Origin: Parvibaculum sp.
GTDB taxonomy: Bacteria > Pseudomonadota > Alphaproteobacteria > Parvibaculales > Parvibaculaceae
DNA length: 64,000 nt
Reading direction: 5' to 3'
NCBI RefSeq assembly: GCF_030694575.1
Contig: NZ_JAUYUS010000112.1
Span: 1 to 64,000, forward strand
Positions within the stretch are counted from its first letter, which is position 1, and each line of letters opens with the position of its first letter. The translations under genes and the position numbers were made by a program. The notes beneath the pieces are model-generated. The model did no database searches and was not told the origin of the DNA. It saw nothing but the letters and a program-made list of their open reading frames with translations. This document shows, piece by piece, positions 3,134 to 61,578 of the stretch.

Positions 3134-3208
3134 GACTGAAGGATGTACAATATTTTACTTTTTGTCAAATATTTTACATCACACAGCATGTCAGGCTCGG
3201 CGCCCCCG

Positions 3209-3258
3209 CCCCAAACGGCTTGCAGCCGTTTGACCCTCCCCGAGGGGAGGGTGGGAAG
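3209..3258. repeat. Dispersed ~50 bp double-hairpin repeat, copy 1
   Basis: The first half is a perfect hairpin, AAACGGCT-TGC-AGCCGTTT. The second half is a C-rich/G-rich hairpin (GACCCTCCC ... GGGAGGGTGGG). The first 32 bases (3209-3240) are identical to 61529-61560 and the rest is nearly so. It lies between the toxin-antitoxin promoter and the 3' end of the sugar dehydrogenase gene. Confidence 0.8.
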
Positions 3259-26858: not shown

Positions 26859-27914
26859 ATGACCAAGGTGCGCGTAAAGCCATCCGTTCAGTCCGCCGCC
26901 GAGGCGGCGATGCGCGCGGACAAGGCCGTCGTCATCGGCCTCAACGCGGCCATCGTCACCGTTTCCGACGACGAGCCGAAAATTCTCGTCGTACCGCATA
27001 ATGAAACGGACGGCGCGAGTGGCTGGGACGCGCTGCCCTTCGGTCCGTTCAATCCGCTGCGTCACCGTACCCTCGAAATCGGCCTGCGCTCATGGGTTCA
27101 GGAGCAGACGCAGATCGAGCTCGGCTATGTCGAACAGCTTTACACGTTCGGCGACCGGGGGCGGCATTCGCTGGAAGTGGAAGCGCCGGGAGAGCATGTC
27201 GTTTCGGTTGGCTATCTGGCGCTGACGCGCAGCCATGACGAGGCGCTGAAGGGCGCCGCATGGCGCGACTGGTATCAGCATTTCCCGTGGGAGGACTGGC
27301 GCGACGGCAAGCCTCAGATCATCGACCAGGTGATCGTGCCGCTGCTGCGCGAGTGGGCGGGACGGCAAAGCGAAGCCTCGCCGGAGGAACTTGCCCGCGG
27401 CAAGCGCCGCGACCGGATGCGCCTCTGCTTCGGCGTGGACGGCGTCGCATGGGACGATGAAAAGGCGCTGGAGCGCTACGAACTTCTCTACAGCGCGGGG
27501 CTGCTGCTGGAAGCGGCGCGCGACGGGCGGCCGAACGCCCAGAAACTTCTCAACGGACAGGCGCCGCAGCTCGGGCGGCCGATGCAGTTCGATCACCGGC
27601 GCATTCTCGCGACGGCCATGAGCCGCCTGCGCGCGAAGATCAAGTACAGGCCTGTCGCCTTCGAACTGATGCCGCCGGCTTTCACGCTTTATGAGTTGCA
27701 GAAGACCGTGGAGGCGCTGCTGGGTCTTCATGTCCACAAGCAGAATTTCCGGCGGCTGGTCGAGAATGCCGGCCTCGTGGAACGGACGGGACGCATGTCG
27801 ACGCGCACGGGCGGACGGCCCGCCGAGCAATTCCGCTTCCGCCGCGAAGTGCTGAACGAGCGCCCGGCGCCCGGCCTCAAGCTTGCGCCTTCGCGCAGCC
27901 GTGCCAACAGCTGA
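26859..27914 (+). CDS. nadQ: NadQ-type NAD biosynthesis repressor (Nudix-like + winged helix)
   Basis: The 351-residue protein has an N-terminal Nudix-like fold (KAVVIGLNAAIVTVSDDEPKI, WDALPFGPF, SYVQEQ-type helix) lacking a catalytic Nudix box, and a C-terminal winged helix (FTLYELQKTVEALLGLHVHKQNFRRLV, given in part). This plan matches the COG4111/NadQ group of alphaproteobacteria, which is related in layout to NrtR. Such regulators sense an NAD-related ligand and repress nad genes. Here nadA-nadB-nadC lie just downstream with a perfect palindromic operator. It starts after a GAGGGGC ribosome binding site. Confidence 0.82.
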   Translation: MTKVRVKPSVQSAAEAAMRADKAVVIGLNAAIVTVSDDEPKILVVPHNETDGASGWDALPFGPFNPLRHRTLEIGLRSWVQEQTQIELGYVEQLYTFGDRGRHSLEVEAPGEHVVSVGYLALTRSHDEALKGAAWRDWYQHFPWEDWRDGKPQIIDQVIVPLLREWAGRQSEASPEELARGKRRDRMRLCFGVDGVAWDDEKALERYELLYSAGLLLEAARDGRPNAQKLLNGQAPQLGRPMQFDHRRILATAMSRLRAKIKYRPVAFELMPPAFTLYELQKTVEALLGLHVHKQNFRRLVENAGLVERTGRMSTRTGGRPAEQFRFRREVLNERPAPGLKLAPSRSRANS

Positions 27915-27931: not shown

Positions 27932-28306
27932 ATGAACGGCATTTCCATCAAGGCAATTCTTGTCAGCTCGATCTTCGGTTTCGTGCTGATGCTCGTTCTC
28001 ATCATGATCCTGGGCGCGCTCTATCCAGTGCTGTTCAACGGCGGCACTGCGGCAGATTTCGAGCAGTCCTGGTTCTCGATGCTGGCGCTGGCAGCGCCCG
28101 TGGCGGCGGGCTATCTCGCGGCGCGACAAGCCCAAACGCGGCCCGTGCTGCATGGCGCCTTGTCGCCCGTCCTCAATGTGCTCTGGGGATTGATCGCCAT
28201 GACATTTCTGGTGCCGCCAACGGCTTTCACGGTAGCCGTGCTGGTGGCCAATGTCCTGCTCGGCGCGCTGGGCGGCTACCTATATCCAAGCGTCAGAAAA
28301 CATTGA
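27932..28306 (+). CDS. Small inner-membrane protein
   Basis: This 124-residue protein has four hydrophobic segments (about 8-32, 48-64, 72-94 and 97-117). There is no recognisable motif beyond the helices; Gly and Ala are frequent in the last two. It starts 17 bases after nadQ, with GGGAGACGGAG upstream, so it is probably in the same transcript. Whether it relates to NAD metabolism (for example precursor transport) cannot be told. Confidence 0.65.
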   Translation: MNGISIKAILVSSIFGFVLMLVLIMILGALYPVLFNGGTAADFEQSWFSMLALAAPVAAGYLAARQAQTRPVLHGALSPVLNVLWGLIAMTFLVPPTAFTVAVLVANVLLGALGGYLYPSVRKH

Positions 28307-28363
28307 TCTTTTCAGGCTGCCCTATTTTGAACGGCGCGCATCGCGCAAGCGGGATATTCCTTG

Positions 28364-28393
28364 TTGACGCTTGATAATACTCAAGCGTAGCAT
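28364..28393 (+). promoter_or_regulatory. Candidate nadA promoter with 22 bp inverted repeat
   Basis: TTGACG (28364-28369) and TAGCAT (28388-28393, 18-base spacer) form a candidate promoter. Between them is the perfect inverted repeat ACGCTTGA-TAATAC-TCAAGCGT (28367-28388), which would hide both elements from RNA polymerase when bound. Confidence 0.55.
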
Positions 28394-28444
28394 ATCTATC
28401 GTTAGAGCCCGGCCCTCTCGGAGTGCCGGTGTTTTTGATCCCTT

Positions 28445-28469
28445 ATATATACTCACAGTGAGTATATAT
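28445..28469 (+). promoter_or_regulatory. Perfect 25 bp palindrome, probable NadQ operator
   Basis: Arms ATATATACTCAC and GTGAGTATATAT flank a single central A. The site ends 23 bases before the nadA ATG. With a NadQ-type regulator encoded 530 bases upstream, it is the best candidate operator of the nadABC operon. Confidence 0.8.
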
Positions 28470-28492
28470 GGGCAGCGAACAGGGAGGTCATC

Positions 28493-29572
28493 ATGGCCCT
28501 CGCAGGTAGCATGCAGCAGCAAAAGACGGGCAGCGTAACGCCCGCAGGAGCGCGCAAGTTCAAGCCGCTGGAGATGCCCGAGCTTGAATACACGCCCGGC
28601 CTCGCGAAGGAGATGGCGCCTCTCTACGAGAAGGTGAAGAACGTCATTCCGTCGGTCGAGTGGCCCTTCTTTGCGCCCTATATCCACGCCATCAACCGGC
28701 TGAAGAAAGAGCGCGACGCCGTTGTGCTCGCGCATAACTACCAGACGCCGGAAATCTTCCATTGCGTCGCCGACATCGCGGGCGACAGCCTGCAGCTTGC
28801 CAAGGAAGCGGCGAAGGTCGATGCCGACGTGATCGTGCAGTGCGGCGTCCACTTCATGGCCGAGACGTCGAAGCTGCTCAACCCGCACAAGACCGTGCTC
28901 ATCCCCGATGTTAAGGCGGGCTGCTCGCTCGCCGACTCGATCACGGGCGCCGATGTGCGCCTGCTGCGCGAGACTTATCCGGGCGTACCGATCGTTACCT
29001 ATGTGAACACGTCCGCCGAAGTGAAGGCGGAGAGCGACATCTGCTGCACCTCTTCCAACGCATTGAAGATCGTGGAGAGCTTCGGCGTCGACCGCGTGCT
29101 CTGCATTCCGGACGAGTTCCTGGCGAAGAACATCGCCAAGCAGACGGATGTGAAAATCCTTACCTGGAAGGGCCATTGCGAAGTGCATGAGCGCTTCACG
29201 GCCGAGGAACTGCGCCAGTATCGCCGCGACGACCCGAACATCGTCATCATCGCGCATCCCGAATGCCCGCCGGAAGTCGTGGCGGAAGCCGATTTCTCCG
29301 GCTCCACGTCCGGCATGATCAACTGGGTGAAGGAACATCAGCCGAAGCGCGTCGTCATGGTGACCGAGTGCTCCATGAGCGACAACGTCGCGGTGGAAAA
29401 TCCGAACGTCGAGTTCGTGCGTCCCTGCAACCTCTGCCCGCATATGAAGCGTATCTCGCTGAAGAACATTCTCGAGAGCCTCGTCTATATGCGCGAGGAA
29501 GTGACCGTCGATCCTGCCGTCGCCGTTCGTGCACGGCAGGCCGTCGAGCGGATGATCAATCTCGGCAACTGA
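28493..29572 (+). CDS. nadA: Quinolinate synthase A
   Basis: The 359-residue protein contains the NadA hallmarks [23 protein letters not shown] (given in part: AHNYQTPEI), [25 protein letters not shown] and [12 protein letters not shown]. The conserved cysteines bind the [4Fe-4S] cluster. It condenses iminoaspartate from NadB with dihydroxyacetone phosphate to quinolinate. AGGGAGG lies five bases before the ATG. The operator-bearing leader and order nadA-nadB-nadC indicate one regulated operon. Confidence 0.96.
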
Positions 29573-29594: not shown

Positions 29595-31208
29595 ATGGCT
29601 CAGGGCAACATCGTCGATGCCGGCGACGTTCTGATCGTCGGCGCGGGGCTTGCGGGCCTCTTCACGGCGCTGAAACTCAGCCCGCGTCCCGTCACCGTGC
29701 TCGCGGGCGCGCCCATCGGCGACGGCGCGTCGAGCGCCTGGGCGCAGGGCGGTATCGCAGCGGCCATCGAAGCGGGCGACACGGCCGAATCCCACGCCGC
29801 CGACACGATCGCGGCGGGCGCGGGCACGGTGGACGAGGAAGCCGCGCTTTCGATCGCACGCGAAGCGGCCTTCCGCATCGAGGATCTGCTGAAGCTCGGC
29901 GTCCCCTTCGACCGCGACATCGAGGGCAAGCTCTCGGCGGGCCGCGAGGCCGCGCACAGCCACCGCCGTATCGTCCGCGTGAAGGGCGATCAGGCCGGCA
30001 AGGCCATCATGCAGGCGCTTGTCGCCGCCGTGCGCGCCACGCCTTCCATCCGCGTGATGGAGGGACTCTCGGCCTATGAACTTGCCATCGAGAACGGACG
30101 CGCTGTCGGAATTTTCGCCCGGCCGGCCCATGCCGCCACCGCGCCTCAGCCGCTGCTCATCAAGGCGCGCGCCGTCGTGTTGGCGAGCGGCGGTGTCGGC
30201 CAGCTTTTCGCGGTCACCACCAATCCGCTTCAGGCACGCGGCGAAGGCGTCGCCATGGCGGCGCGCGCGGGCGCGCTGATCGCGGATCCGGAATTCGTGC
30301 AGTTCCATCCGACCGCCATCGCCTCTCCGCGCGACCCGGCGCCGCTCGTCACCGAGGCGCTGCGGGGCGAAGGTGCGGTCCTGATCGACAATATAGGCCG
30401 GCGCTTCATGCCGGCCATTCACGCCGACGCAGAACTCGCGCCGCGCGATATCGTGGCGCGCGCGATCTTCCGCGAGATCGAGGCGGGGCGTGGTGCCTTT
30501 CTCGACGCACGGGCAGCGCTCGGCGAGCGCTTCGCCACCGCCTTCCCGACCGTTTACGAGACCTGCATGTCGCTCGGCATCGACCCGGCGCGTCAACCGA
30601 TCCCGGTCGCGCCCGCCGCGCACTACCACATGGGCGGCATTCATGTGGATGCGCGCGGCCGGAGCAGCATCGAGGGGCTCTGGGCCTGCGGCGAAGTCGC
30701 CTCGACCGGCATGCACGGCGCGAACCGTCTTGCCAGCAATTCGCTTCTCGAGGCCATCGTCTTCGGCGCGCGCATCGCCGCCGATATCGACGGCTCCGTA
30801 CCCGGTGCCCGCGCGGGCGCCCATGTGGCGCCGCCGGTGCTCGGTTCCGCCTCCACCCCCGAGGCGCCGATGCTGGCGCAGCTTCGCCAGATCATGACGG
30901 CGCATGTCGGCGTGGAGCGCAATGCGCCGGGGCTCGCCTTCGCGCTCGGCGAAATCGCGCGGCTCGAACGCGCGGCGGGGCCTGCGAGCCTCTTCGGCAA
31001 TATCGCGACGACCGCGAAACTCATCACGGCTGCAGCCTATGCACGCGAGGAAAGCCGCGGCGGCCACTATCGAAGCGATTTCGCCACCGCGCGCGCGCCC
31101 TGGCGGCATCGCACCTTCATCACGTTGAAAGAGGCTGCGCGGATCGCCGAAGCCGCCATCGCCGAAGCCCCGGCCGCGACCGCCGCCGACGCGCAGGCCT
31201 GTCTATGA
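29595..31208 (+). CDS. nadB: L-aspartate oxidase
   Basis: The 537-residue FAD enzyme begins with the dinucleotide motif [17 protein letters not shown]. It has [12 protein letters not shown], the active-site regions HSHRRIVR and QFHPTAI, and [16 protein letters not shown] in the capping domain region, as in the succinate dehydrogenase/fumarate reductase superfamily. It oxidises aspartate to iminoaspartate for NadA. It lies 22 bases after nadA and overlaps nadC by four bases. Confidence 0.95.
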
Positions 31209-32074
31209 CGCTTCACCTGACGCCGCTGCCCGCACTGATGATCGAGCCTGCCGTGCGCGCGGCGCTGGCGGAGGATCTCGGCCGCGCAGGCGACATCACC
31301 ACGCAGGCGACCGTGCCGGCGGAGGCGAAGGCGCGCGTGCTCATCAATGCGCGCCAGCCCGGCCGCGTGGCGGGGCTCGATTGCGCGCGCATGGCTTTCC
31401 GGCTTGTCGAGCCGCTGCTGAAGGTCGCGGTGGTGAAAGGCGACGGCTCGGATGTGGAGCCCGGCGACACCATCGCCGCCATCGAGGGGCCGGCGCGCGG
31501 CATTCTCACGGGCGAGCGCGTGGCTTTGAATTTCCTCGGCCACATGTCCGGTATCGCGACCTCGACGCGCGAGATCGCCCGCGCCATCGAAGGCACGAAA
31601 GCTCATGTCTGCTGCACGCGGAAGACGACACCGGGCCTGCGCGTGTTCGAGAAATACGCGGTGCGCGCCGGCGGCGGCATGAACCATCGCTTCGGCCTCG
31701 ACGATGCCGTGCTCATCAAGGACAACCACATCGCCATGTCCGGCGGCATCGCCGCCGCGATAGCGCGCGCGAAAGCGGCGAGCGGCCACATGGTCAAGAT
31801 CGAGGTCGAGGTCGACACGCTCGACCAGCTCGACCAGGCGCTTGCCGCGGGCGTCGACGCGGTACTGCTCGACAACATGACGCCGGAAATGCTTGCCGAG
31901 GCCGTGCGCCGCATCGGCGGCCGCGCCATCGCCGAAGCGTCGGGCCGCATCACGGCAGCAACGGCGCCCGCCATCGCCGCCAGCGGCGTCGATCTCATTT
32001 CCTGCGGCTGGATCACCCATTCCGCGCCCTGCCTCGATATCGGCCTCGACTTCGATAGTCTGACGGCCTCCTGA
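31205..32074 (+). CDS. nadC: Nicotinate-nucleotide pyrophosphorylase (carboxylating)
   Basis: The 289-residue enzyme shows the type II phosphoribosyltransferase motifs [37 protein letters not shown] and [12 protein letters not shown]. It converts quinolinate and PRPP to nicotinate mononucleotide, CO2 and PPi. Its ATG overlaps the nadB stop (ATGA). The last codons (DSLTAS-stop) are part of a 23-base segment repeated 33 bases downstream. Confidence 0.95.
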
Positions 32075-61430: not shown

Positions 61431-61528
61431 GACAAAATTCGAGCGGGACGCGAAGAATTTTTCGGGGAGGGGATGCAGCGGAAAATGTGAAAAATGACGG
61501 CCGATATAGCCGCGATGTCCCTACCCCT

Positions 61529-61578
61529 CCCCAAACGGCTTGCAGCCGTTTGACCCTCCCACAGGGGGAGGGTGGGAA
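61529..61578. repeat. Dispersed ~50 bp double-hairpin repeat, copy 2
   Basis: The first 32 bases are identical to 3209-3240, including the hairpin AAACGGCT-TGC-AGCCGTTT. The second part ends GGGGGAGGGTGGGAA and pairs with 61404-61430. Confidence 0.85.

Follow-up and report, generated by a model that had tools for sequence, protein, structure and literature searches.

A terminator-like hairpin at nearly fixed spacing before a predicted NadQ operator in the nadA leaders of Parvibaculum sp. and other alphaproteobacteria

A NadQ (COG4111) regulon has been described in alpha-, beta- and some gammaproteobacteria, with the published consensus ttATRCTCannntGAGYATaa (PMC5343134), and the locus studied here shares with it the regulator family, the motif and the target genes nadABC. 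In its published summary the regulon is described with single palindromic sites and no mechanism is given; a second site fused to a -10 box and a leader hairpin, both presented below, are not described there. Roadblock repressors, namely PurR, GalR, CcpA, CodY and LacI (PMC10310618) and C.Kpn2I (PMC6237814), resemble this locus in having an operator inside the transcribed region, where they can stop the elongating polymerase; their release is ascribed to Mfd or possibly Rho, whereas here an intrinsic-terminator-like hairpin lies just 5' of the operator. In H-NS-aided termination (PMC4337669), as in our proposal, a DNA-bound protein raises pausing and termination, but that case involves bridged filaments and Rho, while our proposal has a site-specific repressor act together with an intrinsic-type hairpin. 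The nadA motif (NAD+-I riboswitch) is also a nadA leader element; unlike it, the leader here has no conserved aptamer-like sequence and gave no Rfam match up to E 1 (28200-28700).

How NadQ acts on DNA is not settled in the published accounts searched. The regulator, the motif it recognises and its nadABC regulon are already known; a terminator coupled to the operator of NadQ or of another repressor was not found in the literature searched, and the hairpin-operator unit may provisionally be considered new.

The window analysed was the whole 64,000 bp stretch of Parvibaculum sp. contig NZ_JAUYUS010000112.1 (positions 1 to 64,000), a genome that by its relatives falls in or near Parvibaculum, and the genes of the region were as follows.

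26859..27914, + strand: nadQ, transcriptional regulator of COG4111 type (Pfam NrtR_WHD, E 1.8e-19; PDB 7q91 'NADQ transcription factor', E 7.7e-86)
27932..28306, + strand: ORF between nadQ and nadA for a small membrane protein; DUF3792/TIGR04086-like, with scores under the curated cut-offs
28482..28487, + strand: ribosome-binding site GGGAGG, from sequence
28493..29572, + strand: nadA, quinolinate synthase, from profile matches
29595..31208, + strand: nadB, L-aspartate oxidase, from profile matches
31205..32074, + strand: nadC, nicotinate-nucleotide diphosphorylase (carboxylating), from profile matches

The original prediction had placed a Nudix-wHTH regulator of NadQ type just upstream of nadA. 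Its identity as NadQ held well, the best PDB match being 7q91-7q94 (E 7.7e-86, aligned over residues 29-346); the structure of NadQ is said to be the subject of a paper by Minazzato et al. 2022. Pfam recognised an NrtR-type winged helix but no Nudix domain. The protein is like NrtR (the Nudix-related regulator of NAD genes) in its homologous winged-helix DNA-binding domain and unlike it in an N-terminal domain that Pfam does not recognise as Nudix, and its NCBIfam NrtR score was 73 against a cut-off of 400. The regulator gene is near nadA but not immediately adjacent, with the ORF 27932-28306 intervening; this ORF is missing or replaced in several relatives. The motif scan of the window found no NadQ site 5' of nadQ that would point to autoregulation. 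Far from this locus, the window also carried a palindromic repeat of about 55 bp at 3204-3257 and 61524-61578 (93% identical), a REP-like dispersed element that has at least 54 genomic matches, of which some form inverted pairs with a spacing of about 100 bp.

Seven elements were located in the region upstream of nadA, and they are listed here in order.

28364..28369, + strand: -35 hexamer TTGACG; TTGAC invariant in 33/33 family leaders
28367..28388, no strand: IR1, the 22-bp inverted repeat originally predicted, with 8-bp arms and a 6-nt loop; judged coincidental
28377..28393, + strand: operator A (predicted), imperfect NadQ site ATACTCAAGCGTAGCAT that differs from the motif at 2 positions and overlaps both promoter spacer and -10 box
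28388..28393, + strand: -10 hexamer TAGCAT, equal to the right half of operator A
28409..28429, + strand: leader hairpin with stem CCGGC (28409-28413)/GCCGG (28425-28429), from conservation and folding
28432..28436, + strand: T-tract TTTTT, terminator-like, 12 bp 5' of the operator B core
28445..28469, no strand: operator B (predicted), equal to IR2, a perfect 25-bp palindrome ATATATACTCAC-A-GTGAGTATATAT; NadQ core 28449-28465

IR2 was exactly as described originally, with perfect 12-bp arms around one central base, 23 bases 5' of the nadA ATG (28493), and it was the sole palindrome in the window with 12-bp arms and a loop of 0-3 nt. Its NadQ core, ATRCTCANNNTGAGYAT, showed 0 mismatches to the motif; no other exact match, and none with one mismatch, was found in the 3.8-Mb assembly. 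Allowing up to 2 mismatches, the window contained 3 matches against 0.22 expected. The conservation of either palindrome in relatives having nadQ had been proposed as the check, and we ran it on nadA upstream regions from a class-wide sample of 289 genomes. A site with at most 1 mismatch preceded nadA in 66/72 NadQ-positive regions and in 0/28 NadQ-negative alphaproteobacterial regions (P 2.7e-19), while IR1 was intact in few relatives (see below). By the published motif and by conservation the 25-bp palindrome (28445-28469) is thus a predicted NadQ operator, kept along with the regulator and missing from regions that lack NadQ.

Among the exact motif matches away from nadA, several that were inspected had no hairpin or promoter and resembled coding sequence. 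One exception, L267 (G041:C44:47704), was an exact NadQ site preceded by a hairpin and T-tract at a contig end. NadA was not found by search in its genome, G041, and this site may belong to a nadA leader truncated in the assembly. In the same genome as the window, a NadQ-like match with 2 mismatches (L309 position 1418, C68:54917) resembled the operator A form and was intergenic, behind a ClpX-like gene; with no TTGAC and no adjoining NAD gene, it was rejected as a NadQ site and is probably a chance match.

The second operator of the proposed pair was found at another place than predicted. IR1 exists as described, with arms ACGCTTGA (28367-28374) and TCAAGCGT (28381-28388) separated by 6 nt, lying between and partly over TTGACG and TAGCAT. 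That it is itself a NadQ operator is very hard to believe, although it is palindromic and in the right location. Repeats with 8-bp arms of this grade numbered 27 in the window against 13-28 in simulated sequences (n=10), a chance frequency, and therefore IR1 is unremarkable alone and would need other support. Read in its own register it fails to match the NadQ motif, and both arms were intact in only 6/33 distinct family leaders, whereas the overlapping element 28377-28393, to which the conserved letters belong, was kept in 33/33; IR1 was rejected as an operator on these grounds.

This conserved element, operator A, overlaps IR1 10 bp out of register. The 33 distinct family leaders gave a consensus of the invariant TTGAC, a near-constant distance, and then ATRCTCAnnnnTAGYAT, which agrees with the NadQ motif but for a single constant difference, TAGYAT in place of GAGYAT. 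The TAGCAT of the window is 18 bp 3' of TTGACG. The element was also found class-wide at the -10 position, and TTGAC stood at the expected distance from it in 29/32 leaders having both operator A and a hairpin. Judged by motif and conservation, 28377-28393 is a second, imperfect NadQ-type site, the right half of which doubles as the predicted -10 box. The right half presumably departs from the motif because it must also serve as -10, and this would explain the mismatch that all members of the family share at one base of the promoter operator. As far as the motif and its conservation tell, the original prediction of two sites holds, with two NadQ-type sites present, and the first palindrome named is the wrong element.

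Between operators A and B we found a hairpin and T-tract (28409-28436) that the original prediction had missed. A simple terminator scan did not list it either, because the stem has a long loop. A stem followed by a T-tract was present between A and B in 33/33 family leaders, and the T-tract ended 11-12 bp before the B core in all of them. The window leader folded better than its own shuffles (z -2.6), with a TG between stem and T-tract. Class-wide, the hairpin unit was found in 28/70 sampled NadQ-positive leaders, a few of which (G081, G317 and G118) were less convincing for their long loops or odd spacing. Pooled with named Hyphomicrobiales, the hairpin and T-tract occurred in 49/91 leaders against 2.5 in shuffles, counts which treat related genomes as separate so that P values overstate; the number of families, 17 besides that of the window, is the safer measure. 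There were 24 distinct pairs of stem arms, for example GCGGA/TCCGC, CCCGA/TCGGG, GACGG/CCGTC, GGGGC/GCCCC and CCAGC/GCTGG. The leader had no match in a plasmid collection, and an order-level genome sample added no new families with respect to those already sampled.

The T-tracts clustered 10-14 bp before B. Since the hairpins were picked by complementarity, the shuffle control is the fair test of kept structure: T-tracts ending 9-14 bp before B had a stem in 56/61 cases against 8.5 expected, and at other distances no excess of stems was observed, save for a lesser excess at 40-59 bp (10, with 2.9 expected). The spacing from T-tract to B was 9-13 bp in almost all leaders, and the distance from A to the hairpin ranged from 0 to 70. 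With a G+C-rich stem, a T-tract, and a structure kept while the sequence changes, the unit is a predicted intrinsic terminator.

The arrangement of the two sites went with the presence of the hairpin. In leaders with a hairpin, A and B were 55-121 bp apart (32/32), against mostly 22-28 bp start to start in those without (13/17 leaders with A; P 9e-9, overstated by relatedness as above). Nearly abutting sites with no hairpin between them were seen, for example, in L193, L205, L195 and L217. Another layout was present in 13 Rhizobiaceae-type leaders (L287-L290, L292-L298, L301 and L302), composed of TTGCAA ... GAAACTTTCTAAATC, a CCGGC/GCCGG hairpin and TTTTCTT ahead of just one NadQ site, so that a hairpin and then B are present with no operator A at the promoter; the conserved TTGCAA stretch may be the promoter.

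We suppose that NadQ blocks initiation at operator A and at operator B acts as a roadblock promoting termination at the leader hairpin, and consider this to be slightly on the probable side. NadQ bound to operator A, which covers the spacer and the -10 box, would exclude RNA polymerase. Operator B is 52 bp past the predicted -10 (the start position is itself predicted) and would be about 45-70 bp inside the transcribed leader, too distant for a block of initiation; lying well inside the leader, it should therefore act on the elongating polymerase. NadQ on B would be an elongation roadblock, halting the polymerase during transcription of the U-tract when the hairpin has just emerged, and through this stalling a leader terminator of modest strength would become efficient. 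When NadQ, which is reportedly ATP-responsive, is off the DNA, initiation and read-through would both be restored.

Intrinsic termination takes place about 7-9 nt past the stem, corresponding here to 28436-28438, which leaves 11-13 bp to the operator core. When a bound protein acts as a roadblock, the RNA end of the stopped polymerase lies roughly 14 bp short of its site, and from the spacing of T-tract and B a stalled polymerase would therefore sit on the U-tract. The arrangement, the constancy with which it recurs and the leaders with B only speak for NadQ-gated termination. Against it, the stems are short (often 5-6 bp) and the window has the TG gap, leaving the strength of the terminator uncertain; a hairpin is lacking in about 60% of the NadQ-positive leaders sampled, so that NadQ control does not need one; and the fixed spacing could have other causes than coupling.

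An alternative is conventional repression by A through promoter exclusion and by B as a plain roadblock or through cooperative binding, the hairpin being a constitutive attenuator independent of NadQ or an mRNA-stability element. Leader terminators and 5' hairpins are common, and the many NadQ-positive leaders without a hairpin agree with this. We consider it rather unlikely, because it leaves unexplained the nearly fixed distance from hairpin to B (9-13 bp, with a variable one to A) and the link between the hairpin and the separation of A and B.

The hairpin might instead be the terminator of upstream genes, shielding a nadA that starts from a promoter at B, and the upstream gene in the window is indeed co-directional. 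This is improbable: the promoter with invariant TTGAC lies 5' of the hairpin, and at the equivalent place before B a complete TTGAC was found in 2/49 leaders, against 29/32 for A, so a promoter overlapping B was rejected for its unconserved -35. An insulating terminator was rejected as well, the hairpin being kept behind a divergent neighbour, an FkbM methyltransferase gene, in L047. That the hairpin belongs to a leader RNA sensing a metabolite is extremely doubtful; other bacteria do have riboswitches before nadA (cited in PMC8632094), but besides the absence of an Rfam match given above, the promoter is often only 20-60 nt from the T-tract, and across the class neither stem nor loop is conserved in sequence.

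Returning to NadQ-gated termination, we might more broadly speculate, with somewhat less confidence than in the mechanism at this locus and short of holding it probable, that NadQ bound about one polymerase half-footprint past the U-tract gates an intrinsic terminator, combining control of initiation (A) and attenuation (B) in many alphaproteobacterial families, with the Rhizobiaceae using the terminator and B alone. If true, a conserved terminator hairpin followed after 9-13 bp by an operator would give a repressor control of attenuation by a natural design, without a riboswitch, leader peptide or RNA-binding protein, and the same hairpin-operator module could be searched for at other repressors.
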